Positions 10,957-57,094 of a stretch of DNA of 64,000 nt are shown piece after piece. The notes beneath the pieces are model-generated. The model was not told the DNA's origin. It saw nothing but the letters and a program-made list of their open reading frames with translations, and searched no databases. The position numbers and the translations under genes were made by a program. Each line of letters opens with the position of its first letter. Within the stretch, counting starts at the first letter, position 1. The DNA is from Pseudanabaena yagii GIHE-NHR1 (GTDB taxonomy: Bacteria; Cyanobacteriota; Cyanobacteriia; Pseudanabaenales; Pseudanabaenaceae). The stretch is from the NCBI RefSeq assembly GCF_012863495.1, contig NZ_JAAVJL010000001.1, forward strand, positions 434,001 through 498,000, written 5' to 3'.

Positions 10957-11655
10957 ATGTCATCTGATAATTCTAGCGATCGCCCAGATCAGTCTCCAGT
11001 AAATCCGCCATCTGATCCGAAACAAGTGCCACCAGCACAGGAACGTTCGCTCAAAACTATTTTGGCGGACAATTTACCGACGGTGACAGTTGCGATCTTA
11101 TTAGCGGTCGGAGTCCGAATATTTGTGGCAGAACCACGCTATATTCCCTCCAGCTCAATGGAGCCAACCTTATTAATTGACGATCGCCTAATTATTGATA
11201 AACTTTCCTTTCGCTGGCGCAAACCTGAACGTGGCGAAATCATTGTCTTTAATCCACCCAATGTTCCTGTAGTGCCTGATGCCACTAAGGTTTATATCAA
11301 GCGCGTCATTGGCTTACCAGGCGATCGCATTAGCATTCATGATGGCAAAGTCTTTATAAATGATGCGCCTCTAAATGAGCCATACATTGCTGCTCCACCA
11401 AATTACACCTTGCCGACCCAAGATGATGCCCTCTGTCCTAATTGCTTCCGTCCCTCTAATGTGCAATCAGGAAAGGATTATCCATATTTCACTGTCCCCA
11501 ATGGTAAATATTGGGTGATGGGTGATAACCGCAATAACAGTTTGGATTCCCATGCGTGGGGCTTCATGCCAGAGGAAAATATCGTTGGGCGTGCGATGTT
11601 TCGCTACTGGCCCTTTGATAGTCGTGCGGGTAACTTGACTGTTCCTAAATATTAA
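10957..11655 (+). CDS. lepB: Signal peptidase I (first of tandem pair)
   Basis: Removes signal peptides from exported proteins at the outer face of the membrane. A Pro-rich cytoplasmic tail of about 45 residues is followed by one membrane helix (TVTVAILLAVGVRIFVAE). The catalytic serine is in PSSSMEPTL and the catalytic lysine in YIKRVIGLPGD; the last box is MGDNRNNSLDSHAWG. 232 residues. Compared with the next gene it has an insertion of about 20 residues with a CPNC cysteine pair (DALCPNCFRPSN). It lies 60 bp before the second copy, with a hairpin between, so the two may be separately transcribed. Confidence 0.94.
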   Translation: MSSDNSSDRPDQSPVNPPSDPKQVPPAQERSLKTILADNLPTVTVAILLAVGVRIFVAEPRYIPSSSMEPTLLIDDRLIIDKLSFRWRKPERGEIIVFNPPNVPVVPDATKVYIKRVIGLPGDRISIHDGKVFINDAPLNEPYIAAPPNYTLPTQDDALCPNCFRPSNVQSGKDYPYFTVPNGKYWVMGDNRNNSLDSHAWGFMPEENIVGRAMFRYWPFDSRAGNLTVPKY

Positions 11656-11715: not shown

Positions 11716-12294
11716 ATGTCCACAGAAAATAAGCTCGATTCGCAAGTGACCGTCAAACCTTGGTGGCAACAACATGGTGAAACGATTCGGATTTTTGCTG
11801 TTGCCCTTGCGATCGCTATTTTCCTCCGTGCTTTTATCGTTGAGCCACGCTTCATTCCCTCTGGCTCAATGGAGCCGACTTTGCAAGTGGGCGATCGCAT
11901 TTTAGTAGACAAAATTTCGCAACGTTGGCAAGAACCTCAATACGGCGATATTTTAATTTTCTATCCGCCTGCTACACCTGCAACCAGTGATACGAGCAAG
12001 GCTTACATTAAGCGATTGATCGGTGTGGAAGGCGATCGCATTGCGGTTAAGAATGGCAAGGTCTATCGCAATGGTGAAGCTCTTGATGAGTCCTATATTG
12101 CAGAAGCTCCAAAATATACGATGCGTGAAGTAGTCGTTCCCAAAGGTCATTACTGGATGATGGGCGACAATCGCAATCACAGTAATGATTCGCATATTTG
12201 GGGATTTTTACCAAAAGAAAATGTCATTGGTAAAGCAACTATTAGATTCTTTCCTTTTGGCGATCGGTTAGGTGCAATTACAACAAGTAAGTAA
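11716..12294 (+). CDS. lepB: Signal peptidase I (second of tandem pair)
   Basis: 192 residues, a shorter paralogue of the preceding gene. A short cytoplasmic part is followed by one membrane helix (IFAVALAIAIFLRAFIVE). The catalytic serine is in PSGSMEPTLQVGDR and the lysine in YIKRLIGVEGDR; the last box is MGDNRNHSNDSHIWG. It lacks the cysteine-containing insertion. Many cyanobacteria carry two type I peptidases, thought to serve different membranes or substrates. The tandem order here points to local duplication. Confidence 0.94.
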   Translation: MSTENKLDSQVTVKPWWQQHGETIRIFAVALAIAIFLRAFIVEPRFIPSGSMEPTLQVGDRILVDKISQRWQEPQYGDILIFYPPATPATSDTSKAYIKRLIGVEGDRIAVKNGKVYRNGEALDESYIAEAPKYTMREVVVPKGHYWMMGDNRNHSNDSHIWGFLPKENVIGKATIRFFPFGDRLGAITTSK

Positions 12295-12330: not shown

Positions 12331-12579
12331 ATGTCAACTAATGAATCCTTGTTATCAAGAATTACTTTTGACCGCAATATTTTGGGTGGTAAGCCCACAA
12401 TTCGCGGTATGAGAATTTCTGTGGCGATGATTTTAGAGCTTTTGTCTAAGGGATCGGCAATGCAGGAAATTTTGGAGGATTATCCAGATTTAGAAATTGC
12501 TGATATTTATGCAGCATTACTCTATGCCTATCGTCTAGTAGCTAATGAGGAAATTTTTGAAAGGTCGGTTGCATCATAG
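12331..12579 (+). CDS. DUF433-family antitoxin
   Basis: 82 residues. The DUF433 pattern is clear: ITFDRNILGGKPTIRGMRIS, then VAMILELLSKGSAMQEILED and YPDLEIADIYAAL, a winged-helix-like DNA-binding fold. The family pairs with DUF5615 PIN-like toxins, and that gene follows 2 bp later. It should bind its own promoter and neutralise the toxin. The upstream promoter lies in the 36-bp gap after lepB. Confidence 0.88.
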   Translation: MSTNESLLSRITFDRNILGGKPTIRGMRISVAMILELLSKGSAMQEILEDYPDLEIADIYAALLYAYRLVANEEIFERSVAS

Positions 12580-12581
12580 TC

Positions 12582-12929
12582 ATGAGATTTTTACTTGATA
12601 TGAATGCAAGTGGAGCTTTATTGAGTTTATTGCTGGATTCTGGTCATGATGTTGTTTGTGTACGCGATGTTGATCGCAAAATGAGTGATAGTGAGATTCT
12701 GAATTGGGCGGTAAGAGAAAGACGCATTATCATTACGACGGATTCTGATTTTGAGCAAATGATTTGGCTACAGGCAAGACAACATTGTGGAGTTTTAAGA
12801 TTGGAAAATTTGCCTCGCTCAGAAAGAATGTCACTATTTGAAGAAGTACTGTCTAGTTATGGTCAAGATTTAGAAGCTGGAGCCGTTGTGATTGCTTCAA
12901 AACAAAAAATTCGGATTCGTAGAAGCTAA
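12582..12929 (+). CDS. DUF5615 PIN-like toxin
   Basis: 115 residues. The Mut7-C/PIN-like start MRFLLDMNASGALLSLL supplies the first acidic residue. SGHDVVCVRDVDRKMSDSEI and IITTDSDFEQM supply the others, as expected of a metal-dependent RNase. It follows the DUF433 antitoxin by 2 bp in one operon. The family partner is known; RNase activity is inferred from the fold. The frame looks intact. Confidence 0.87.
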   Translation: MRFLLDMNASGALLSLLLDSGHDVVCVRDVDRKMSDSEILNWAVRERRIIITTDSDFEQMIWLQARQHCGVLRLENLPRSERMSLFEEVLSSYGQDLEAGAVVIASKQKIRIRRS

Positions 12930-15802: not shown

Positions 15803-16885
15803 ATGAATAAAAAATATCGGTTACTGTTTTTATCTACTCCCGTAGGTGCATTAGGTTCTGGAATTGGGGGCGGCGTAGAATTAACTCTTCAGAATGCAGC
15901 TAAGGCACTCATGGCAAAAGGTCATGAAGTGGAAATAGTTGCTCCTGAAGGTTCTGTTACCAATGTCACGAAACTAACCCCAATAGCAGGCAATAGCCAA
16001 GTTTCCGCCCAAACTCAAGTCGGAACAGATATGGTCGTATTGCCCCAAGATTCTGTTCTCGAAAATATGTGGAGTTACGCGAGAGAAGTCCAAGATCAGT
16101 TTGATTTATTATTCAATTTTGCCTACGATTGGCTACCTCTATATCTCACACCATTCTTCCATCGCCCGATCGCCCATTGGATTAGTATGTCATCCCTCTC
16201 GCCTGTGATCGATGCGATGGTCAGCAAAACAGTCAAGCTTTGTCCTCAGGCGATCGCTGTCAATACTCGAGCCTGCGCTAATACCTTTAGCGATGGCGAT
16301 CGCTTGATGATTATGGGCAAAGGCATTGATGTCACCCAATACAATTTTGTGGCAAAGCCTGAACAACCTAGTCTGGCATGGGTAGGACGCATCTCTCCTG
16401 AAAAGGGACTAGAGGATGCCGCCGAAACTGCTCAAGCGACAGGTTTACCACTACGAGTATTTGGACTCATTCAAGATCAAGCCTATTGGCAACAGATTCA
16501 AACCGATTTCCCGAAGGCAGAAATCCATTATGAAGGATTTTTATCTACCCATGAGTTACAGCAAAAACTAGGTCAATCGAGTGCTTTGTTAATGACACCA
16601 CGCTGGATCGAGGCTTTTGGTAATGCGGCGATCGAGGCGTTTGCCTGTGGAGTACCTGTGATTTCCTATCGTAGCGGTGGACTGACGGAAATTGTGCGCC
16701 ACGGTAAGACAGGATTTCTTGTGGATATGGGAAGTGTCGCAGGATTGATTAAGGCAGTTTCTCAGTTAGATCAAATCGATCGCTTAGTCTGTCGTCAGCA
16801 ATTAGAAGCGGAATATTCCCTAGAAGTCTGGGGTGATCGCTTAGAGAAATGGTTTGAGCAACTCATCACCAACTACAAAATTTAG
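15803..16885 (+). CDS. Glycosyltransferase family 4
   Basis: 360 residues with the GT-B fold. Seen: a glycine-rich N-terminal loop (GSGIGGGVELTLQNAA), GRISPEKGLEDAAE at the start of the second domain, and the GT4 donor-site motif EAFGNAAIEAFACGVPVISY followed by GGLTEIV. The donor and acceptor sugars cannot be told; similar cyanobacterial proteins are annotated as UDP-glucose-type transferases acting on glycolipids or exopolysaccharide. It overlaps the convergent GAF gene by 4 bp. Confidence 0.9.
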   Translation: MNKKYRLLFLSTPVGALGSGIGGGVELTLQNAAKALMAKGHEVEIVAPEGSVTNVTKLTPIAGNSQVSAQTQVGTDMVVLPQDSVLENMWSYAREVQDQFDLLFNFAYDWLPLYLTPFFHRPIAHWISMSSLSPVIDAMVSKTVKLCPQAIAVNTRACANTFSDGDRLMIMGKGIDVTQYNFVAKPEQPSLAWVGRISPEKGLEDAAETAQATGLPLRVFGLIQDQAYWQQIQTDFPKAEIHYEGFLSTHELQQKLGQSSALLMTPRWIEAFGNAAIEAFACGVPVISYRSGGLTEIVRHGKTGFLVDMGSVAGLIKAVSQLDQIDRLVCRQQLEAEYSLEVWGDRLEKWFEQLITNYKI

Positions 16886-17400
16886 TCAAAGTCTAAAACT
16901 TCGCTTTGAATAGATGGTGCAGCCGATAAACCTTGAGAATATAAACGCATGGAGGTAATGTCCGAATGCTCCCATTTTTTCACGTCTTGGCAATGATGGG
17001 CTACCAATAGCCCCCATAGCTTGCCATTATTAAGCACAGGGGCTACTAAATTGGAGCGGACTTGCAAACTTCTTAAGAAATCACGGTGGCAATCACTGAT
17101 AGGAGCAATTTCAATATCATCTGCCCAATAAATACGCCCAGCTATATACAAATCCGCATACTCTCGTTTAAAACATTCATCAGCACCCGTTGAACAAATG
17201 ATCGAATACTTATGATCGCTCAAAGCTTCAAAGGTTACCTGTCCCTTCCAATGAGAATAGAAATAATACAAAGCCACGCGATCAACATCTAAGCACTCCC
17301 GCAGTTCATGTAAGGCATCATGAACCAAGGAGTCTTGTTGTAATTTATTGGTAATTCGAGTTAAAACCGAATTCAAACCGCGATTGGCAGGATTCATCAT
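16882..17400 (-). CDS. Stand-alone GAF protein with DXCF cyanobacteriochrome cysteines
   Basis: 172 residues from the ATG at 17400 (a TTG at 17415 is less likely). One GAF domain covers about residues 10-155. It shows the signature of bilin-binding cyanobacteriochromes: the canonical cysteine with adjacent His (DCHRDFLRSLQVRSNLVAPV, C104-H105), then LWGLLVAHHC. It also has the second-cysteine motif DECF (D74-C76-F77) of the DXCF class. The two cysteines are 28 residues apart, the spacing I recall for TePixJ (C494 and C522). Such domains bind phycoviolobilin or phycocyanobilin and sense blue/green light. There is no kinase, GGDEF or MCP output domain, so it would act through a partner, or may be a free photoreceptor. 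Bilin binding is inferred. Confidence 0.8.
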   Translation of the reverse strand: MMNPANRGLNSVLTRITNKLQQDSLVHDALHELRECLDVDRVALYYFYSHWKGQVTFEALSDHKYSIICSTGADECFKREYADLYIAGRIYWADDIEIAPISDCHRDFLRSLQVRSNLVAPVLNNGKLWGLLVAHHCQDVKKWEHSDITSMRLYSQGLSAAPSIQSEVLDFD

Positions 17401-17847
17401 TGCAAGAGATAACAAATAAAGCTGAAAAAGGTTAAAAATCCGAAAATTGCTGAATAAGACATCCTTTGTGCTTTCTTAAGTCCCAAATAAATTCTCAAAA
17501 AGCTTGCGAGGTAATCTCTTGGAAAATTTATTTGTACTATACAAAACCCTAAAAGTCTGTATTTATTTAATATCAAGGACACTGAATAGTTGTCGCAGGT
17601 TCTGCCATATCTTTTAATAGTTTCTAATTTTAATCTTGTGTGCAGTACATATAACAATGCTTACTAAAAAAATAGCAAGATATGGATACCAAGAAATATT
17701 CTTTATACTTATATCTGTTGTGGATATGGCGCAACAGAGTCTAAAACACCTTTCTAGTAAGGCTTTTAAGATTTAAGTCTCTTTATTCCTATTAAAAAAA
17801 GCTATACTTTAGATATGAGTTTTTTTACTTAGTAGCGAGTCAAAATC
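17401..17847. other. Spacer upstream of recO and the GAF gene
   Basis: AT-rich, carrying both divergent promoters. The stretch 17480-17560 shares words with 59560-59640 (cccaaataaattctcaaaaa.. / ..aatttatctaggtcg), so part is a decayed dispersed hairpin. A minus-strand frame here is best explained by that repeat. I see no gene. Confidence 0.5.
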
Positions 17848-39367: not shown

Positions 39368-42300
39368 ATGTCGCAGTCTGGGATGCTAGAACTAGCTCAC
39401 AAAAAACTTTATTGGCCGAAACCTGAGCAGATCTGGGAACCTAGTGGCTCTGGTCCAAAGGTTTATGCTCAATTGGCTAAAGAAAAAATTGAAGAAAAAA
39501 TCACGAGAGACAAGCAAAAATTCCCAGATGCAAAAGGTGCAAAAGTTAGTGTCTTGGCGGCTAACCCAGAAGGTGATGAAACAGAATCACCGATTGCAAT
39601 TATATGTCAATTTACTAGATCTGTCTCTTCAGTAACAATTAAAGAAGTACATAGATTAGCATGGAGCTTTAGTCGGGCGCGATCACTAATCACAATAGAA
39701 CCGAGCTTAATTCGAGTTTGGTCTTGCTGTGAACCACCTACAGAAGAAGAGGAACTTAAAGAGGTTGCAAGTGTAACTAAGGCTCATCTTTCTGAACAAG
39801 CTGATCTTTCTGAGCAAGCAGCAAATGCTCTGCAATGGGTTGAGTTAGTCTCTGGGAATTTTTTCCAAAACCATGAGAATCGGTTTAAAAGAAGTGGTGC
39901 TGCCGACCAAATGCTATTGGACAATCTCAAGGAAGTTAGACAACAGCTTGAGGTTGATGGTTTGGATGTTGAAACTATCCATGACCTACTAGCAAGAATT
40001 ATTTTTATTCAGTTCTTATTTCAGAAGCAAGATTCTAAAGGTGAACCTGCTCTGAATGAAAGGATTTTGCAAGATTTGCATTCACAAGAAGTTTTATCTA
40101 AATCTTATAGGAAATTATCTGAGATTCTTGATAACTTTGATGATACTTACAGTCTTTTTCGTTGGTTGAATGACAAGTTTAATGGAGATTTATTTCCAGG
40201 GAAAGGTGAAACAGAAGAAGAACGTGAATCTGAATGGCAAGAAGAAATACAAAAAGTTAGAGTAGAAGAAAACCGATATCTAAAAAAGCTTGCAGATTTT
40301 GTCAGAGGAGATCTAAAGATGCAAGATGGACAATTTTGCTTGTGGAAATATTATTCTTTTGATGTTATTCCGCTTGACTTCATTAGCAGTATTTATGAAG
40401 AGTTTGTTAATAAAAAAGCAGGAGAAGGTGTTCACTATACCCCAGAATATATTGTTGATTTTATCTTGGATGGCGTTCTTCCTTGGGAGCAAACAGAATG
40501 GGATCTCAAAATCTTAGATCCTGCTTGTGGTTCTGGAATCTTTTTGGTAAAAGCTTTCCAGAGATTGATTTACCGATGGGAATTAGCTCATGATAATGAA
40601 AGAATTTCAGCAAATGTTTTAAGATATTTGCTTGAGAATAATATCTTTGGTGTTGATATTGATAAAGAAGCGGTTAGGGTTGCATCTTTTAGTCTCTATA
40701 TGACGATGGTAGATAGTATTGATCCTCTAAAATATTGGGAAAACCAAGTTCGGTTTCCTCGATTAAGGAACCAAAGACTAATTCATTCAGATTTTTTTGC
40801 AGAAGATAAAGAAGGATTTCGTACCGATCAAGATGCTGAGACTTATGACTTGGTGTTGGGTAATGCGCCTTGGGGCGATGGGACACTTACACCCTTAGCG
40901 TCTGAATGGCAAAAGAGAGATAAAGGTCGGTGGTTTGTTCCTGATAAAAATATTGGTCCGCTATTTTTACCCAAAGCGGCTGTTTTGACCAAACCAGGTG
41001 GGCAGATATCGATGATGCAACCTGTATTCATACTAATTTTGAGTCAACTAGGTACTGCAAAGGAGTTTAGAAATAATTTATTTTCAGAATATTGTGTTGA
41101 AGAGATTATTAATCTAGCAATTTTACGATTTGAGATTTTTAAAAATGCAATTTCTCCAGCTTGTATTATTACTCTTTCTGTACAAAAGCCTAATATTGAA
41201 CATTTAATTGTTTATATATGCCCTAAACCTAGTTGCAGCAATGAAGATAACTACTACATAAAAATTGAGCCGCAAGATATTAACACCATATATTTACAAG
41301 AAGCTATATGTCAACCTTTGGTATGGACTGTTTTAATGTGGGGAGGTAGACGAGATTTAAATCTGATACAACATTTAGCTAGACATGAAAGCTTATCTAA
41401 ATATGAGGAAAAAGGTCTTGTGAAAACGCGACAAGGCGTAATTCCAGGAGATAGGAAAAAGCATCAAGAAGAACTACTTGGAAGAAGAAGAATATGGCAA
41501 GCCAAGTTCCCTCAAAATACTTTTCTAAAGCTAAATGCTAAAGATCTACCTATTAATAAAGATCCAATGACTCACTCAAGAGATTCAACGAATTTCTCAG
41601 CGTTTGAAATTCCGCAGCTTATTCTTAAGCAAAGTTGGCAGGCTTCAAGTAAGCGATTTCGAGCTGCTATTATTGAACCTGATGAAGATAGTCATCAAGG
41701 TGTTATTTGTTCTGAAACTTGTGTGAGCGTTCATATACCTGACGATTATGCTGATCTTCTTAAGACTGCATGTCTAATTTACAACAGTAGAATAGCAGTA
41801 TATTACTTATTTCTATTAAATGCTTCTTTTGCTTCTGAGCGCCCAAAAGTTACTGTGGGAAACTTGTTAAGTGTGCCAATTGTACAAAGAGAAGGATTAA
41901 ATTTAGATGTTGTCAAAACTTATGATGATGTTGACAGAATTGCAGGTGAATTATTTGCTCTTAAAGATAGTGAATATGTACTAATTAATGATCTTATAAA
42001 CTATACACTAGCAGATTTCAAAGGGGATAAATTTTCTCCAGGAAGACTGAAAACTCAGCGTTTTGGTCAAACTTTACTTGATAATAACGAAGAACCAGAA
42101 CTTAAAGAATATTGTGACTATTTTTTGCGTGTAATTAAGGGTGGATTTGGACAGGATAAGAAGGTATGTGCAGATATCTTTCAGGAAGAAACAAATCATC
42201 GTCTCCCTGTTAGGTTAGTAGCAATATATCTAAACAAGTCAATTCATGATGGAATCAAGATAGAACCTATTAACTCTCAAGACTTACTCAATCGATTGGA

Positions 42301-42547
42301 GCAATTGAATAAATTATTTATGGCACAACCTAGTTCTGATAATGGAGGAATTTTTTATCAGCGTGTAGCCAGAATATATACCTCGACTATTTGGAATGGT
42401 GAGCAAGTACCAACAGTGTATTTGGTTAAACCAGACAAAATTCGTTATTGGACTCGTTCTATGGCTTTGCGCGATGCGGATGAAGTTTCCGCAGATATCA
42501 TGCTGGGAAAAGCAAATTTAAACCAAGAGTCGGGGGCGTTACCTTAG
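39368..42547 (+). CDS. Eco57I-type N6-adenine methylase / restriction-modification protein
   Basis: 1059 residues. An N-terminal region of about 330 residues of unclear function precedes the class I methylase core: EGVHYTPEYIVDFIL, SAM motif I DPACGSGIFLV (D384), NNIFGVDIDKEAVRVA and the catalytic motif region LGNAPWGDG (499-502). The usual NPPY/F/W is NAPW here. A C-terminal region of about 500 residues with likely target recognition follows (FKGDKFSPGRLKTQRFGQ is at its end). I see no clear nuclease motif in this chain; the next gene could supply it. AT-rich codon use differs from the core genes nearby. Starts at ATG 39368. Confidence 0.82.
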   Translation: MSQSGMLELAHKKLYWPKPEQIWEPSGSGPKVYAQLAKEKIEEKITRDKQKFPDAKGAKVSVLAANPEGDETESPIAIICQFTRSVSSVTIKEVHRLAWSFSRARSLITIEPSLIRVWSCCEPPTEEEELKEVASVTKAHLSEQADLSEQAANALQWVELVSGNFFQNHENRFKRSGAADQMLLDNLKEVRQQLEVDGLDVETIHDLLARIIFIQFLFQKQDSKGEPALNERILQDLHSQEVLSKSYRKLSEILDNFDDTYSLFRWLNDKFNGDLFPGKGETEEERESEWQEEIQKVRVEENRYLKKLADFVRGDLKMQDGQFCLWKYYSFDVIPLDFISSIYEEFVNKKAGEGVHYTPEYIVDFILDGVLPWEQTEWDLKILDPACGSGIFLVKAFQRLIYRWELAHDNERISANVLRYLLENNIFGVDIDKEAVRVASFSLYMTMVDSIDPLKYWENQVRFPRLRNQRLIHSDFFAEDKEGFRTDQDAETYDLVLGNAPWGDGTLTPLASEWQKRDKGRWFVPDKNIGPLFLPKAAVLTKPGGQISMMQPVFILILSQLGTAKEFRNNLFSEYCVEEIINLAILRFEIFKNAISPACIITLSVQKPNIEHLIVYICPKPSCSNEDNYYIKIEPQDINTIYLQEAICQPLVWTVLMWGGRRDLNLIQHLARHESLSKYEEKGLVKTRQGVIPGDRKKHQEELLGRRRIWQAKFPQNTFLKLNAKDLPINKDPMTHSRDSTNFSAFEIPQLILKQSWQASSKRFRAAIIEPDEDSHQGVICSETCVSVHIPDDYADLLKTACLIYNSRIAVYYLFLLNASFASERPKVTVGNLLSVPIVQREGLNLDVVKTYDDVDRIAGELFALKDSEYVLINDLINYTLADFKGDKFSPGRLKTQRFGQTLLDNNEEPELKEYCDYFLRVIKGGFGQDKKVCADIFQEETNHRLPVRLVAIYLNKSIHDGIKIEPINSQDLLNRLEQLNKLFMAQPSSDNGGIFYQRVARIYTSTIWNGEQVPTVYLVKPDKIRYWTRSMALRDADEVSADIMLGKANLNQESGALP

Positions 42548-42551
42548 TAGT

Positions 42552-43286
42552 ATGGTTAAACGAAGGCAAACAATACCCGAAGCTAGATGGTCTCAAACGG
42601 AAGATTTTGTGGAATTGGCTTTAGCTTGGAAGAATGATGCAACTAAAACTCTTTGGGAATATGTTTGGCAAGGCTGGGACTGTTACTCTACAGAAATCCT
42701 ATCAAAAATCGATTTGTTAGAAGCTGACGAGCAGATTGAAAGGATGATTACACAAGATCTGGAACTAGATATTCGTCGTGTAATGTCAGGATATGAACCT
42801 TTTACAATTCAACATGAGAGATTTGAAGGAGAATTAAGAACTGTAGCTCCAGCAAGACCAAAACAATGTGATTTGTCCTTTGTATGGCTTGATAATCGTA
42901 GGATTACTTATCCTATCGAAGCGAAAGTATTAAAATCTGATAGTAATACTGGGGTTAAAGCCTATGTCGAAGAAATTGCTGAAAATTTTTTAAAGTTTAG
43001 ATACGCTCCATTCTCAAGTGAAGGAGGATTGCTTGGCTATCTTCTTCAAGGAAGTTCTAAAATAGCTTTTAAAAATATTGAAATAGCAATTTCCTGTACT
43101 TTATCCGATCATCCAGATTTTGTGGAACGCGATCACAAGATTTCAGATCATCAGCGTGTAGTTCCAGAAGATAAAACATATCCAGACAAATTTCGCTGTC
43201 ATCATTTGCTTTTACAATTGAACAAGGAACCCAATGTCAAACAAGCACCTAGAAAAAGAAAAAGCTCCAAAAAATTGAGCGATTAG
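42552..43286 (+). CDS. PD-(D/E)XK-like partner of the methylase
   Basis: 244 residues, family not recognised. It starts 4 bp after the methylase stop, so the two are one operon. The middle segment CDLSFVWLDNRRITYPIEAK fits a PD-(D/E)XK nuclease core (D107 or D114, E123-x-K125). A Lys/Arg-rich C-terminus (APRKRKSSKK) could bind DNA. Most likely the restriction subunit of the locus; this is inference from motif and position. Confidence 0.62.
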   Translation: MVKRRQTIPEARWSQTEDFVELALAWKNDATKTLWEYVWQGWDCYSTEILSKIDLLEADEQIERMITQDLELDIRRVMSGYEPFTIQHERFEGELRTVAPARPKQCDLSFVWLDNRRITYPIEAKVLKSDSNTGVKAYVEEIAENFLKFRYAPFSSEGGLLGYLLQGSSKIAFKNIEIAISCTLSDHPDFVERDHKISDHQRVVPEDKTYPDKFRCHHLLLQLNKEPNVKQAPRKRKSSKKLSD

Positions 43287-43404: not shown

Positions 43405-43638
43405 ATGACAGAGTTACTCGATCGCACAATTACTAAACTAAAAACACTATCTGTCGAGCAACAAGACGCGATCGCCATGATAATTTTAGAAGAACTCGAA
43501 GATGAAATTCAATGGAATAATTCATTTGAAAGTTCCCAAGACCTACTCGCAAAACTAGCTAAAGAAGCAATATCTGAATACAATGCAGGCAAACCTCAAG
43601 AAGATGAACGAAGCCGATCACAACTCACCACAGATTAA
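43405..43638 (+). CDS. Antitoxin-like protein with displaced C-terminus
   Basis: 77 residues. It resembles the small cyanobacterial antitoxin family that starts LLDRTITKLKTLSVEQQDAI and runs EELEDEIQWNNSFESSQDLL, AKLAKEAISEYNAGKPQE. The relatives I know end within a few residues of that point; here the last 11 residues (DERSRSQLTTD) are read from inside the DUF1016 gene in another frame. No toxin of the RelE/ParE type follows; the DUF1016 nuclease sits where it would be. It overlaps that gene by 35 bp. Confidence 0.65.
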   Translation: MTELLDRTITKLKTLSVEQQDAIAMIILEELEDEIQWNNSFESSQDLLAKLAKEAISEYNAGKPQEDERSRSQLTTD

Positions 43639-44326
43639 TTCAGATATCCAAGAAACAGCACAAAAACTCTTTAGCGAAATTAGTCAGCTTATTGACGCAG
43701 CTAAACAACGCGCCGCCATTGATCTTATTAGAAATGCCGAACTTGTACACAAATCTGAAGACCCCATTCGGCATCATTTAGAACAACTGCGTCAAGAGCA
43801 GCAAATATCCACAGACTTACTGCTAAAAGATCCCTACATCCTAGACTTTTTAGATATAAGCGATCGCTACTATGAAAAAGACCTCGAAGATGCCATCCTG
43901 CGCGATATTGAGAAATTCTTATTAGAACTTGGAGCAGGATTTACCTTTATCGCAAGGCAAAAACGTATCCAAATCGATAACGATGACTTTTATATTGACC
44001 TGCTGTTCTATAACCGCAAACTCAAACGCCTTGTTGCGATCGACCTCAAACTCGGCAACTTTCGCCACGAATATAAAAGCCAAATGGAACTTTATTTACG
44101 TTGGCTTGCCAAATATGACCAAGAGAGCGATGAACTTCCACCATTGGGAATCATTTTATGTGCAGGTAAAAAACAAGAACAGATTGAACTACTCGAACTA
44201 GACAAAAGCGGTATCCATGTTGCTGAATACCTCACCGTATTACCACCAAAAGAACTACTCCAAGCAAAGCTTCAACAAGCGATCGCCTCAGCACGTCGGC
44301 GATTACCTTCATCGGAACAGGATTGA
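43604..44326 (+). CDS. DUF1016/YhcG-type nuclease lacking N-terminal domain, copy A
   Basis: 240 residues from the ATG at 43604, where near-identity with copy B begins. The C-terminal PD-(D/E)XK nuclease domain of YhcG is complete (LLKDPYILDFLDI, DAILRDIEKFLLELGAGFTF, DDFYIDLLFYNRKLKRLV with IDLKLGNF as the DxK, then MELYLRWLAKYD and ILCAGKKQEQIELLELDKSG). The DUF1016_N domain (about 110 residues) is missing; LFSEISQLIDAAKQRAA is joined directly to IRNAELVHKSEDP. Copy B (56372-57094) has the same gap and differs at about five residues. Its role is probably nuclease-related defence or Holliday-type DNA handling; inferred. Confidence 0.85.
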   Translation: MNEADHNSPQINSDIQETAQKLFSEISQLIDAAKQRAAIDLIRNAELVHKSEDPIRHHLEQLRQEQQISTDLLLKDPYILDFLDISDRYYEKDLEDAILRDIEKFLLELGAGFTFIARQKRIQIDNDDFYIDLLFYNRKLKRLVAIDLKLGNFRHEYKSQMELYLRWLAKYDQESDELPPLGIILCAGKKQEQIELLELDKSGIHVAEYLTVLPPKELLQAKLQQAIASARRRLPSSEQD

Positions 44327-48074: not shown

Positions 48075-49569
48075 CTGGAGTTTAGACTAAAAGATGTAAG
48101 AAAGGCAGAGTAAAAGAGATACAAACTGCCTAAAGTAGATGAAAAGTAAAGAGACATCTACAGCCATGATTATTGATAAACTACAGGAATTTCGTCAACA
48201 GGCATATAAATTTTTAGGGAACGGAAGAGATGCCATATTAGACTTGATGGATGCAGTATTGACGAGTCCAAGAGTGAAATCATTTGCAGAATTATCATTA
48301 TCAGCAGTGTATCGACGGAAATGGTCAAGCCTGTATGAATCATTAAAAGACAGTCGTCCAAACCGAGGAAAGCTGAGACGATTATGTGTGGAACAAATCC
48401 CGAAAGCCATCCGCCCATTACTAGCAGGAGACCATACAGGATGGGGAAGACCGCATGCCAAAACGCTAAGAGACAGGATTTTTGTGCATCAACCGAATTT
48501 GGTAGAAGGGAACAAACCAATTGTGTTAGGGCACGACTACAGCACCTTGGCATGGATACCAGAAATGTCAGGGAGTTGGGCGATTCCGTTATGTCATGAA
48601 CGCATCAGTAGTTTTGAGACAGCAGCCCAAAGAGGTGCATTCCAACTGAGGCAAGTATGTCGCGATTTGACAGCAAGACCGATCGCCACGTACGACAGTG
48701 AATATGGCAGTGCCACCTTCATAAATTTGACCGAGGATATCCCCGTAGATTTACTACTGCGACTACGCCCGAATCGATGCTTATACAAAGCTCCTGCCCC
48801 CTATAGTGGCTGTGGTCGTCCCCGCAAGCATGGGGATAAATTCCAACTTGCCAATGCTGATAGTTGGGGAGAGCCATCGGCAACTTTTAGCTTAGAGGAT
48901 GAGACTGTCGGACAAGTGCTAATCCAGCAATGGTCTGATTTACACTTTAAAAAAGCATCCCAACGACATTTCCAAGTTATGCGAGTTACCCATCCCCATT
49001 GCTCTGGTTTGTGGTTAGCTTGGGTGGGTGAGCAAATGCCATCTTTAGAGCAGATTTGGAGACTGTACTTACGCCGTTTTGCCATCGACCATTGGTATCG
49101 CTTTGCCAAACAACGTTTACATTGGACTCTGCCTCAATTACTGACTCCTCAACAGGCTTTGCGCTGGAGTGACCTCATGCCTCTATTGTCTTGGCAGTTA
49201 TGGTTGGCGCGTCAACTGGTTATTGATACTCCTTTGCCTTGGCAAAAAACTCAAACCAATCTTACTCTTGGTCGTGTTGCTCAGGGCTTTGCTGCACTTT
49301 TAGTTAGGATTGGCTCTCCTGCTTGTTCTCCCAAACCTCGTGGTAAGTCTCTTGGCTGGAATTCTGGGCGTAAGCGGTCTCCTTTTCCTCGCTTTCCTGT
49401 CATCAAAAAACACGCCTCCCGTCCGAAAAAGGTCAATAAAGACAACCTTAATTCCTAACCTTCAATATTCTCCTTTTCTCTCTCTTCGTTTTGCTCAGTT
49501 CTCCATTTTATGGGTTACTTTTTCCTGCTCTTTTTCTGTTTCTCTTAATCAACTTAGTCTAAATTCCAG
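48075..49569 (+). mobile_element. Insertion sequence with about 16-bp terminal inverted repeats
   Basis: The left end ctggagtttagactaa and the right end, read on the other strand, ctggaatttagactaa match at 15 of 16 bases, with weaker similarity for another 20. The element is 1495 bp with one transposase. No target duplication is visible (left flank ...aactta, right flank gctctc...), in line with a deletion at the left side. Confidence 0.82.
48139..49458 (+). CDS. DDE transposase (IS4/IS701-like, NF041680-type)
   Basis: 439 residues. RNase H-like DDE transposase for the surrounding IS. Candidate acidic residues: LGHDYSTLAWIPE, TYDSEYGSATF, and the Glu/Asp of the late region DHWYRFAKQRLHWTLPQLLT. 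The Y-x-x-R-W-x-I-D-H signature (LYLRRFAIDHWYRFAK) is as in IS4-superfamily enzymes. The basic, Arg/Lys-rich C-terminus is normal. An ATG at 48166 (MIIDKLQEFRQQ) is an alternative start. The exact family name is from memory. Confidence 0.85.
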   Translation: MKSKETSTAMIIDKLQEFRQQAYKFLGNGRDAILDLMDAVLTSPRVKSFAELSLSAVYRRKWSSLYESLKDSRPNRGKLRRLCVEQIPKAIRPLLAGDHTGWGRPHAKTLRDRIFVHQPNLVEGNKPIVLGHDYSTLAWIPEMSGSWAIPLCHERISSFETAAQRGAFQLRQVCRDLTARPIATYDSEYGSATFINLTEDIPVDLLLRLRPNRCLYKAPAPYSGCGRPRKHGDKFQLANADSWGEPSATFSLEDETVGQVLIQQWSDLHFKKASQRHFQVMRVTHPHCSGLWLAWVGEQMPSLEQIWRLYLRRFAIDHWYRFAKQRLHWTLPQLLTPQQALRWSDLMPLLSWQLWLARQLVIDTPLPWQKTQTNLTLGRVAQGFAALLVRIGSPACSPKPRGKSLGWNSGRKRSPFPRFPVIKKHASRPKKVNKDNLNS

Positions 49570-51746: not shown

Positions 51747-54700
51747 ATGGATGACCGCGATCGCACGAATATTCAAGCATTTTTAGCTAAATGGCAAGGC
51801 TCACAGGGAAATGAGCGAGCTAATTATCAGACTTTTTTTGATGATTTGTGTGGGGCGTTGGGGGTGGAGCGTCCGATTCCGAAGGGGACTATGCAGGGTG
51901 ATCCTTACTGTTTTGATAAGGAGATTAAAGTTTTTCATAAGGAGGGAATTAAGACAAATTTTGTGGATTTCCATCGGGAGGGGCATTTCTTAATTGAGGC
52001 AAAACAGGGGAGTGATAAGCCTAAACAAAGTTCGCCGAAGCGCGGGACTGAGAGCTATTTGCGGATGATGGAGAAGGCTTTTTATCAGGCTTTGAGCTAT
52101 ACGCCGTTTTTAAATAGCAAGCCGCCGTTTTTGATGACTTGCGATATTGGTTCGCATTTTGAGCTTTGGATGAGTTTTAGTGGCAACTATGGTGGCTATG
52201 GGGCGCGGGAAGTAATTCCCCTTGAGGATCTTCTTAAAGAGAAGGTTTTCGATCGCTTTGTGGCGATTTTTAGCGATCCGCAAAGTCTGAATCCTGAGAA
52301 GTATCGGGCGCGGGTGACGCGAGAGGTGGCGGGGACTTTGGCAAAGTTGGCGAAGTGGCTAGAGGAGCAGGGTAAGGAACCGCAGGAGGTAGCGAATTTT
52401 TTGATGCGCTGCATTTTTACGATGTTTGCGGAGGATGTGCGGTTGTTGCAGGGGGAGATTTTTACGAGGGCGTTACAGGAGCGTTGGATTCCTGAACCGA
52501 GCCGATTTAAGGCTGAGATTGAGGATCTGTGGAAGGTGATGAATACGGGTGGGAAGTTCAATTTTGATGCGATTCCGCAGTTTAATGGCAGTTTCTTTGC
52601 GAATGCGATCGCCTTTGATTTGCCGAAGGAGCAGCTAGAGGTGTTGTATGATGCTGCCCAAAAGGATTGGCGCGAGGTGGAACCTGCGATTTTTGGGACT
52701 TTGTTGGAACGGGCGTTAGAGAAGAAGGAGCGCAGTCGATTGGGGGCGCACTATACGCCGCGATCCTATGTGGAGAGGTTGGTGCGTCCTGTGGTGATGG
52801 AACCTTTGCGCGAGGAGTGGCTTTTAGTTGAGACTGAGGTTAATCGGCTTTTGGTGCTGAAGGATGGACAGGAGGAACCAACGAAGTCGCAAAGAGATAA
52901 GGCGGCGGTAGAGATTCGGGCGTTTTTGGAGCGTTTGCAACAGGTGCGGATTCTTGACCCTGCTTGCGGTTCGGGTAATTTCTTGTATGTGACGTTGGAT
53001 TTGATCAAGACGTTGGAGCAGGAGGTGCAGATGCGGTTGTTGGATGTGTTGGGGAAGGTGACGACAGATTTGTTGGAGGAGTTCGATCCCCGTTTGGCGG
53101 GACGGAAGCAGGTGAATCCTTCGCAGTTTTTGGGTATTGAGATTAATCCAAGGGCGGCGGCGATCGCGGAGTTAGTAATCTGGATTGGTTATTTGCAGTG
53201 GCATTTTAAGCGTTATGGCACTACGCCACCGCCTGAGCCAATCTTGCAGGATTTCCATAATATCGAGTTTCGGGATGCGGTGTTGGCTTATGATGGGCGG
53301 GAGCTTGATGTTGATGCGAAGACGGGTAAGGTGCGGAGTCGTTGGGGTGGGCGGACGATGAGGCATCCTGTGACGGGTGAGGATGTGCCTGATCCGTCGG
53401 ATCAGGTTCCCATCTATCGCTACATTAATCCGCGTCCTGCGGTGTGGCAAGAGGCTGATTACATTGTTTCTAACCCTCCTTTTATTGGGAATAAACGAAT
53501 GAGAGATAGATTAGGTGATGGCTATGTTGACGCGCTACGGGCAACTCATGGCGATATTTCAGATACGGTTGATTTTGTAATGTATTGGTGGAATCAGTCA
53601 GCCAAATTGGTGATTGATAATAAACTAAAGAGCTTTGGGTTAATTACGACTAATAGCATTACTCAAACTTTCAACAGAAAAGTGTTACATGAATATCTAT
53701 CAGGAACTAATCCAATATCTTTGACATTTGCCATTCCAGATCATCCTTGGATAGACAGCGCAGATGGAGCCGCAGTTAGAATTGCTATAACTGTAGGCAA
53801 ACTTGGAAAACATGAGGGGAATCTAATAAAAGTAGCAAAAGAAATAGAAGGTGAGAATGAAATCTCTCTCATATTCACACCTTCGTCAAGGGGATTAATT
53901 AATTCTGATTTAAGTGTTGGTGCAGATGTTGCATCAGCAAAGAAATTGAGAGCAAATTCTATACTTAGTGGACAAGGTGTTATCGTCTTAGGAGAAGGCT
54001 TTCAGTTAAATGAAGAAGAATATCTAAAACTGTTGAAGCAAGAACCTCAAGGCGTTCATTTAGTTAAACGATATCGTAATGGTAAAGATATCACTGACAA
54101 ACCCCGTAATCTAAGGATCATAGATTTGTATGGTTTAACAGAATTGCAAGTTAAGCAATATCCATACATATATCAAAGAATTTATGAGCTTGTAAGACCA
54201 AAACGCTTAGAAATGAAAGACAAAGCTCGCCGTGAGCAATGGTGGCTTTTTGGGAGATCTAACCAAGAAATCCGTAATGCAATCAATGAACTTGACCGAT
54301 ATATTATTACCTGCCGAACTGCAAAGCATCGTGTTTTTGTATTTGCAGAAGGTGATATTTTGCCTGATGCGAAATTAATTGCTTTCGGTTTAAATGATGC
54401 TTTTTATCTTGGGATTCTTTCATCTAGCTGTCATCTAATATGGGCTTCAAAAAGTGGTGCATGGCTTGGAGTTGGTAATGATTCTAACTACAATCATTCC
54501 GAGTGCTTTGGAAAGTTTCCTTTCCCAGATGCAACATTAGAACAAAAAGAAAAAATTCGACAACTAGGGGAAAGACTCGATCGCCATCGCAAACAAGTAC
54601 AAGCCCAACATCCCGAAATCACGATTACAGGAATGTATAACCTCCTCGAAAAACTCCGCAAAGGCGAAGACTTCACCGACAAAGACAGAGAATACAACAA

Positions 54701-55331
54701 CAAAGCCCTAGTCTCCACCCTCAAACAAATCCACGACGACCTAGACAACGCCGTACTAGAAGCCTACGGATGGGAAGACTTGAAGCCATCTTCTCTCCAT
54801 CAGACCACTGATAGCCCCCCTAGCCCCCCAATTCTGGGGGGAACCGAACAGTCTAATCAGTCAAAGTCCCCCAGTATTGGGGGATTTAGGGGGCTTGATA
54901 AACTATCGGGTGAAAGTCTCACCGAAATCATCCTCGATCGCCTCGTCACCCTCAACGCCCAACGCGCCGAAGAAGAACGGAACGGACACATACGCTGGCT
55001 ACGTCCCGAATACCAAGCACCTAACGAAGTCCGCACTCAAACCATCATCGAAGGTGTTGGCGAAAGTGAAGAAGTAGCGATCGCCCCAGCCGAAGTCAAA
55101 ACCTTCCCCAAACAACCAAAAGACCAACTCGCCGCCATCCGCGACCTCCTCCGCACCAGCAACAACCCTTGGACGATCGCCCAAATCGCCGCCCAATTCA
55201 AAAACGGTGGTAGATATAAAAATGCAATTTCCGAAAACCTCGAACGCCTAGAATGGTTCGGCATCCTGCACTGCCATCAAGACGGTCAAATCAAATACTG
55301 GCAACACATCGAAACACAGCAAGCAAGTTAA
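51747..55331 (+). CDS. MmeI-like (type IIL) fused restriction-modification enzyme
   Basis: 1194 residues combining nuclease, methylase and target recognition. The N-terminal nuclease motif D74-x9-E84-x-K86 (DFHREGHFLIEAK) has the D-x9-ExK spacing of MmeI. SAM motif I DPACGSGNFLYVTL is near 404 and the catalytic motif NPPF at 576-579 (adenine N6 type). Target recognition is probably at about 700-950. Base use is mosaic: G-rich to about 53460, AT-rich from 53460 to 54540, C-rich after that. A palindromic repeat is inserted in frame at 54812-54896. MmeI is about 920 residues, so this one is long. It should both methylate and cut; activity untested. Confidence 0.85.
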   Translation: MDDRDRTNIQAFLAKWQGSQGNERANYQTFFDDLCGALGVERPIPKGTMQGDPYCFDKEIKVFHKEGIKTNFVDFHREGHFLIEAKQGSDKPKQSSPKRGTESYLRMMEKAFYQALSYTPFLNSKPPFLMTCDIGSHFELWMSFSGNYGGYGAREVIPLEDLLKEKVFDRFVAIFSDPQSLNPEKYRARVTREVAGTLAKLAKWLEEQGKEPQEVANFLMRCIFTMFAEDVRLLQGEIFTRALQERWIPEPSRFKAEIEDLWKVMNTGGKFNFDAIPQFNGSFFANAIAFDLPKEQLEVLYDAAQKDWREVEPAIFGTLLERALEKKERSRLGAHYTPRSYVERLVRPVVMEPLREEWLLVETEVNRLLVLKDGQEEPTKSQRDKAAVEIRAFLERLQQVRILDPACGSGNFLYVTLDLIKTLEQEVQMRLLDVLGKVTTDLLEEFDPRLAGRKQVNPSQFLGIEINPRAAAIAELVIWIGYLQWHFKRYGTTPPPEPILQDFHNIEFRDAVLAYDGRELDVDAKTGKVRSRWGGRTMRHPVTGEDVPDPSDQVPIYRYINPRPAVWQEADYIVSNPPFIGNKRMRDRLGDGYVDALRATHGDISDTVDFVMYWWNQSAKLVIDNKLKSFGLITTNSITQTFNRKVLHEYLSGTNPISLTFAIPDHPWIDSADGAAVRIAITVGKLGKHEGNLIKVAKEIEGENEISLIFTPSSRGLINSDLSVGADVASAKKLRANSILSGQGVIVLGEGFQLNEEEYLKLLKQEPQGVHLVKRYRNGKDITDKPRNLRIIDLYGLTELQVKQYPYIYQRIYELVRPKRLEMKDKARREQWWLFGRSNQEIRNAINELDRYIITCRTAKHRVFVFAEGDILPDAKLIAFGLNDAFYLGILSSSCHLIWASKSGAWLGVGNDSNYNHSECFGKFPFPDATLEQKEKIRQLGERLDRHRKQVQAQHPEITITGMYNLLEKLRKGEDFTDKDREYNNKALVSTLKQIHDDLDNAVLEAYGWEDLKPSSLHQTTDSPPSPPILGGTEQSNQSKSPSIGGFRGLDKLSGESLTEIILDRLVTLNAQRAEEERNGHIRWLRPEYQAPNEVRTQTIIEGVGESEEVAIAPAEVKTFPKQPKDQLAAIRDLLRTSNNPWTIAQIAAQFKNGGRYKNAISENLERLEWFGILHCHQDGQIKYWQHIETQQAS
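54812..54896. repeat. Palindromic repeat inserted in frame in the MmeI-like gene
   Basis: agcccccctagccccccaat... at the left and ...attgggggatttagggggct at the right form imperfect inverted repeats of about 29 bp. Such ccccctagccccc repeats are common intergenic elements in cyanobacteria. Here it codes a Pro/Gly/Ser-rich insert (SPPSPPILGGTEQ, SPSIGGFRGLD). Confidence 0.8.
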
Positions 55332-56371: not shown

Positions 56372-57094
56372 ATGAACGAAGCCGATCGCAACTCACCACA
56401 GATTAATCCAGATATCCAAGAAACAGCACAAAAACTATTTAGCGAAATAAGTCGGCTTATTGACGCAGCTAAACAACGCGCCGCCATTGATCTTATTAGA
56501 AATGCCGAACTTGTACACAAATCTGAAGACCCCATTCGGCATCATTTAGAACAACTGCGTCAAGAGCAGCAAATATCCACAGACTTACTGCTAAAAGATC
56601 CCTACATCCTAGACTTTTTAGATATAAGCGATCGCTACTATGAAAAAGACCTCGAAGATGCCATCCTGCGCGATATCGAGAAATTGTTATTAGAACTTGG
56701 AGCTGGATTTACCTTTATCGCAAGACAAAAACGCATCCAAATTGATAACGATGACTTTTATATTGACCTGCTGTTCTATAACCGCAAGCTCAAACGCCTT
56801 GTTGTGATCGACCTCAAACTCGGCAACTTTCGCCACGAATATAAAAGTCAAATGGAACTTTATTTACGTTGGCTTGCCAAATATGACCAAGAGAGCGATG
56901 AACTTCCACCATTGGGAATCATTTTATGTGCAGGTAAAAAACAAGAACAGATTGAACTGCTCGAACTAGACAAAAGCGGTATCCATGTTGCTGAATACCT
57001 CACCGTATTACCACCCAAAGAACTACTCCAAGCAAAACTCCAACAAGCGATCGCCTCAGCACGTCGGCGATTACCTTCATCGGAACAGGATTGA
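56372..57094 (+). CDS. DUF1016/YhcG-type nuclease lacking N-terminal domain, copy B
   Basis: 240 residues. Near-identical to 43604-44326 (H6R, S13P, Q28R, one F-to-L and one A-to-V change), with the same missing DUF1016_N segment. The nuclease core (DDFYIDLLFYNRKLKRLV, IDLKLGNF) is intact. It has no overlapping antitoxin-like gene in front: similarity to copy A starts at the start codon and ends in the downstream hairpin, so gene and hairpin moved as a unit. It forms the right border of the second cassette. Confidence 0.86.
   Translation: MNEADRNSPQINPDIQETAQKLFSEISRLIDAAKQRAAIDLIRNAELVHKSEDPIRHHLEQLRQEQQISTDLLLKDPYILDFLDISDRYYEKDLEDAILRDIEKLLLELGAGFTFIARQKRIQIDNDDFYIDLLFYNRKLKRLVVIDLKLGNFRHEYKSQMELYLRWLAKYDQESDELPPLGIILCAGKKQEQIELLELDKSGIHVAEYLTVLPPKELLQAKLQQAIASARRRLPSSEQD

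Follow-up and report, generated by a model that had tools for sequence, protein, structure and literature searches.

A complete stand-alone cyanobacteriochrome photosensor of the DXCF type is most probably encoded in the window, the 64,000-nucleotide stretch of the Pseudanabaena yagii GIHE-NHR1 genome that was analyzed here. The protein represents a conserved, single-copy orthologous family with predicted bilin binding and photocycle (probability roughly 0.8). This reading is carried by the sequence, the motifs, the fold, the phylogeny and the conservation, by the fact that no fusion was found, and by bilin-synthesis genes in the genome.

The GAF protein and its gene

The open reading frame starts with the ATG at 17400 and ends with the stop codon at 16882-16884 on the minus strand of the window; an alternative in-frame TTG start at 17415 would add five residues (Table 1). 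The single-domain protein of 172 residues described in the initial annotation was recovered, as the reading frame and one Pfam GAF domain agree. The statement that an output domain is missing held as well: none is present in the 172-aa protein, and no orthologue found was fused to a kinase, chemotaxis, GGDEF or other output domain. A scan for a promoter and a terminator found nothing, and the NCBIfam search returned no matching family, its sole match scoring far below the cut-off.

DECF and the canonical Cys-His had been placed 28 residues apart. Indeed, they could be identified as residues 74-77 and 104-105, and the distance from Cys76 to Cys104 is exactly 28 residues, a spacing that is invariant in 117 distinct family sequences, together with Phe77, Cys104 and His105. 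When the protein was aligned to TePixJ, as had been proposed, DPCF and CH of TePixJ fell on DECF and Cys104-His105. The WGLLVAHHC motif is present, but it is not the end of the protein for which it had been taken, since it occupies residues 129-137 and is followed by about 35 residues, including the helix at residues 145-160. W129, G130, L131 and H135 are invariant in the stand-alone family, across which the tail after Leu158 is usually nine residues long.

Table 1. Positions in the window of the GAF gene and of the parts of its product.
Feature	Positions	Strand	Evidence and remarks
CDS, probable stand-alone DXCF cyanobacteriochrome GAF protein	16882..17400	-	172 aa + stop; orthologues; dN/dS ~0.02
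GAF domain, residues 24-155	16936..17331	-	Pfam PF01590, 61.1 bits (cut-off 22.4 bits); AlphaFold; TePixJ GAF PDB match
DXCF motif D74 E75 C76 F77, with second, predicted photolabile Cys	17170..17181	-	Aligned to TePixJ DPCF
Cys104-His105, canonical predicted bilin attachment	17086..17091	-	Aligned to TePixJ CH; 117/117 members
WGLLVAHHC strand, residues 129-137	16990..17016	-	Bilin-binding GAF hallmark; also in PDB cyanobacteriochromes
N-terminal helix α1, residues 4-37	17290..17391	-	AlphaFold model; TePixJ counterpart is a dimer bundle
C-terminal helix α5, residues 145-160	16921..16968	-	AlphaFold model; then short tail, no signaling helix

Structure and comparison with known photoreceptors

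The protein has a bilin-type GAF domain with the canonical Cys-His of cyanobacteriochromes, and DECF places the second Cys in the Asp-Xaa-Cys-Phe that defines the DXCF subfamily. The fused output domain, a feature of typical multi-domain cyanobacteriochrome receptors, is absent. An AlphaFold model from 81 sequences reached a mean pLDDT of 90.9 and superseded an earlier model from 22 sequences, which was weak near residues 53-73. The top Foldseek matches of the model were cyanobacteriochrome GAF domains, and the closest solved structures were the bilin-binding GAF domains of miRFP670nano, the dual-sensor kinase 6oap and TePixJ. Comparison with TePixJ (4glq) resulted in a Z score of 22.4 and an rmsd of 1.9 Å over 149 residues, and similar values were obtained for other cyanobacteriochromes.

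TePixJ of Thermosynechococcus (4glq/4fof/3vv4), a blue/green DXCF photoreceptor, shares both Cys positions, their spacing and the fold with the window protein. However, the two are ~28-30% identical and fall in separate clades, and TePixJ belongs to a methyl-accepting chemotaxis protein, whereas the window protein stands alone. In a photo-crystal study, the chromophore of TePixJ twists towards Gln526 (PMC6955287), a residue that corresponds to Phe108 here. In crystals TePixJ forms a dimer via its α1 and α5 helices (PMC6955287); both helices are present in the model, and by this analogy homodimerization, or pairing with another helix bundle, would be possible. The best single-sequence PDB match was miRFP670nano (6mgh; 2.9e-21, Z score 23.4), an engineered lone cyanobacteriochrome GAF domain which shows that a lone GAF domain of such size can bind bilin. 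It differs in being an engineered fluorescent protein without the DXCF Cys, the aligned residues being DRYF. Columns 55 (β2) and 112 (helix 4) are presumably the published Phe sites of the teal-DXCF trapped-twist type. The window protein has Val55 and Leu112, and in these columns none of the 117 members has the Phe pair that is linked to teal photoproducts, or Phe at either of the two; TePixJ also lacks Phe at both columns and has Val and Leu, like the window protein.

A conserved family of stand-alone GAF proteins

In a sample of 386 cyanobacterial genomes, single matches (E <= 1e-38) were identified in 57 genomes from 31 of the 139 genera, and the family is single copy per genome. Most of 25 same-genus relatives carry an orthologue of 67-97% identity, and in scores of genomes orthologues are 46-97% identical to the window protein, which is well beyond chance. 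The 80 named genome loci are mostly from filamentous cyanobacteria and include Pseudanabaena, Nostoc, Anabaena, Calothrix, Rivularia, Fischerella, Leptolyngbya, Phormidesmis, Nodosilinea and Microcoleus, among others. All 80 are single-domain open reading frames; orthologous open frames are 165-222 aa long in the phylum sample and up to 267 aa among the named loci. The dN/dS of ~0.02 among close relatives indicates strong purifying selection. In a search-based census of GAF domains in the window genome, the other matches were at most 36% identical to the protein and all lay in open frames of at least 375 aa.

Cys76, Cys104 and Cys137 are nearly invariant in the 117 family sequences. Cys76 is found in 116 of them and Asp74 in 106, and the other 11 members have Glu, Ser or Asn in place of the Asp of DXCF. 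Mastigocoleus testarum BC008 (loci L158 and L155) has DESF, in which the second Cys is gone and the canonical Cys is kept; the two loci share their gene context, so one of them may be an assembly duplicate. The DESF protein is a natural single-Cys variant and a useful control. A family member of 52% identity was also found on a contig labeled Candidatus Gracilibacteria (L114), which is most likely a misbinned cyanobacterial contig. No relative was found when viral contigs were scanned with patterns from the GAF protein, and full-text searches of the open-access literature turned up no paper devoted to these stand-alone proteins as a family.

Some 18 positions are fixed across the stand-alone family but not among 44 multi-domain DXCF GAF domains. 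Positions 46 and 48 are Tyr in the family, compared with mostly Q/R/K and D/N, respectively, in the multi-domain domains; family residues 56-57 are Thr-Phe as against Val-Ala elsewhere, residues 70-72 are Ser-Thr-Gly and residue 108 is Phe. Because the relatives have polar residues at these sites, Tyr46 and Tyr48 are probably exposed and may form a contact surface. Judged from the alignment, the ~18 family-specific positions as a whole suggest a dedicated contact surface.

Phylogeny

Two trees were compared, a larger one of 96 domains and a smaller one which includes four ordinary GAF domains from the window genome. With arbitrary roots and bootstraps that were not fully converged, the family formed a single clade (support 100/100), which in the larger tree sat on a long stem (1.27) and was separate from the multi-domain DXCF GAF domains and TePixJ. 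In the smaller tree, three of the four ordinary GAF domains were split from all cyanobacteriochromes and the family by a branch with 98/94 support, and the fourth, on a very long branch, fell among the cyanobacteriochromes but not with the family. The family thus groups with cyanobacteriochromes, and a placement among non-chromophore GAF domains was not seen. Alignment to TePixJ, trees and fold all concur with the DXCF cyanobacteriochrome assignment made in the initial annotation.

The nearest multi-domain relative by profile score is the first GAF domain of a two-GAF DXCF histidine kinase from a genome of the same family (G028, locus L219). This domain was sister to the stand-alone family in the smaller tree only (96/87), the larger tree not resolving its position. 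The kinase differs from the window protein in its length of 708 aa, its two GAF domains and its histidine-kinase end, the latter read by eye.

Gene neighborhood

A glycosyltransferase gene converges on the GAF gene, its 3' end overlapping the GAF stop codon by 4 bp, and recO lies upstream of the GAF gene in divergent orientation. Among the 80 named loci (some gene names read by eye), the neighbors are clade-specific: recO is found in Pseudanabaena only; in many Nostocales ndhH lies upstream, with a gene for a MidA-like methyltransferase or a glyoxalase downstream; and in some Rivularia and Calothrix an ArgZ-type arginine dihydrolase gene lies upstream and an RNase D-like one downstream. At L095, L110, L107, L128 and further Nostocales loci, the GAF gene stands between ndhH and the MidA-like (Methyltransf_28) gene in a row on one strand. 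In mitochondria, NDUFAF7, a homologue of MidA, methylates NDUFS2, the homologue of NdhH. The conserved neighbors that the initial annotation had suggested looking for were not found, since no gene is kept across clades among the named loci compared, and hence no specific partner is indicated. RecO was rejected as a partner because its gene adjoins the GAF gene only in Pseudanabaena.

In Anabaena PCC 7120, alr3355 is ndhH (PMC8147232, PMC12923008), and Alr3356 is reported to be phytochrome-like, to contain a cyanobacteriochrome GAF domain and to be a direct FurA target (PMC4788461). The number of Alr3356 (Anabaena/Nostoc sp. PCC 7120) follows that of ndhH, just as the GAF gene adjoins ndhH in many Nostocales, whereas the window gene adjoins recO and not ndhH. 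By synteny and description, rather than by sequence comparison, Alr3356 is the probable orthologue in Anabaena PCC 7120. A study by Ma et al. from 2012 (FEBS J), cited for Alr3356, reportedly dealt with seven blue-absorbing GAF domains of PCC 7120, most of which are said to have dark states near 420 nm.

Other genes in the window

Near-identical proteins, one of 247 and one of 240 aa and both nuclease-like when read by eye, are encoded at 43583-44326 (+) and 56372-57094 (+); the pair is ~12.8 kb apart and flanks other restriction-modification-like genes. A methylase-like open reading frame of 1059 aa with an adjacent one of 244 aa (39368-43286, +) and a second methylase-like frame of 1194 aa (51747-55331, +), all read by eye, form a probable restriction-modification island. 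Between the two methylase-like frames lies a transposase-like one (48139-49458, by eye). Two signal peptidase I-like genes, whose sequences differ clearly, stand in tandem at 10957-11655 (+) and 11716-12294 (+), and two small adjacent frames at 12331-12929 (+) resemble a DUF433/PIN-like toxin-antitoxin pair.

Proposed mechanism

Chromophore binding and a photocycle are predicted for the protein from its relatives. The window genome contains two genes for heme oxygenase and one of the ferredoxin-dependent bilin reductase family, and therefore phycocyanobilin is probably available in the host. Cys104 would attach phycocyanobilin, and the GAF domain would probably isomerize it to phycoviolobilin, as DXCF GAF domains generally do, with a reversible Cys thioether at C10 (PMC11284453). 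In the dark 15Z state, Cys76 would form the second thioether at C10, giving a blue-absorbing form; blue light would isomerize the 15,16 bond and free Cys76, which would yield a form that absorbs at longer wavelength, probably in the green. The blue/green photocycle is a first guess by analogy and the color of the photoproduct carries real uncertainty; since the Asp of DXCF is replaced in 11/117 members and Phe108 stands in place of Gln526, the photocycle could differ. As the protein has no output domain, a separate protein would read its light state, via the family-specific surface and/or the α1/α5 helix bundle. Signaling through a protein partner is inferred weakly, and this step by itself has about even odds.

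Alternative explanations

A protein that binds bilin but does not signal, and serves as a phycocyanobilin/phycoviolobilin store, carrier, isomerase or light screen, would explain why an output domain is missing from every orthologue found. It would also fit the lack of a conserved partner gene and the isomerization of phycocyanobilin to phycoviolobilin that is general among DXCF GAF domains (PMC11284453). However, a carrier has no obvious need for the second Cys, which belongs to a reversible, blue-shifted photocycle and is kept in 116/117 members; the Cys104 linkage would, by analogy with relatives, be stable and better suited to a sensor, and the gene is single copy per genome, so that we consider such a role unlikely. 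All other such matches in the genome sit in frames of at least 375 aa, and a protein without output domain could for that reason be a truncated relic of a multi-domain cyanobacteriochrome. The chance of this is close to nil in view of the strong purifying selection (dN/dS ~0.02), the single clade of stand-alone orthologues over 31 genera and the convergent glycosyltransferase gene directly downstream, which indicates that no 3' part was lost here. A truncation or frameshift artefact is ruled out by the conservation and the dN/dS of ~0.02, and because no orthologue found is fused.

The probable orthologue alr3356 is a reported direct target of the iron/redox regulator FurA (PMC4788461), and the almost invariant Cys76, Cys104 and Cys137 would fit a sensor that responds mainly to redox state or iron through its thiols, with light as a secondary input. 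FurA control, however, bears on expression and not on mechanism, the same Cys residues are fixed in ordinary DXCF photoreceptors, and Cys137 is present in 44/44 multi-domain DXCF GAF domains, which makes a thiol sensor quite improbable. The position of the GAF gene in Nostocaceae, between ndhH and a MidA/NDUFAF7-like methyltransferase gene, could point to a factor for NDH-1 (complex I) assembly or regulation. In each of four Nostocaceae genomes that were checked, the three genes (ndhH, GAF and Methyltransf_28) lie within ~2-4 kb, and among the 80 named loci ndhH is near the GAF gene in 14 and MidA in 16. Yet Methyltransf_28 is absent from three Pseudanabaena genomes, one of them the window genome, so that the cluster is not a general link; ndhH is ~2 Mb from the GAF gene in the window genome, and three further carriers from outside Nostocaceae have the genes at distant places. 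A universal link to NDH-1 was therefore rejected as clade-specific, and such a function has very little probability.

Implications

Work on cyanobacteriochromes normally treats them as the input domains of larger receptors. The strictly stand-alone, single-copy family under strong selection described here suggests that a free photoswitch can relay light. Beyond the favored reading as a stand-alone DXCF photosensor, and at somewhat less than even odds, the family may be one of light-controlled adaptors in many filamentous cyanobacteria, in which a never-fused DXCF photoswitch would bind a partner in a light-dependent manner, and thereby regulate it, through a conserved aromatic surface. As naturally self-contained domains of ~170 aa, its members would be raw material for blue-light optogenetic tools.
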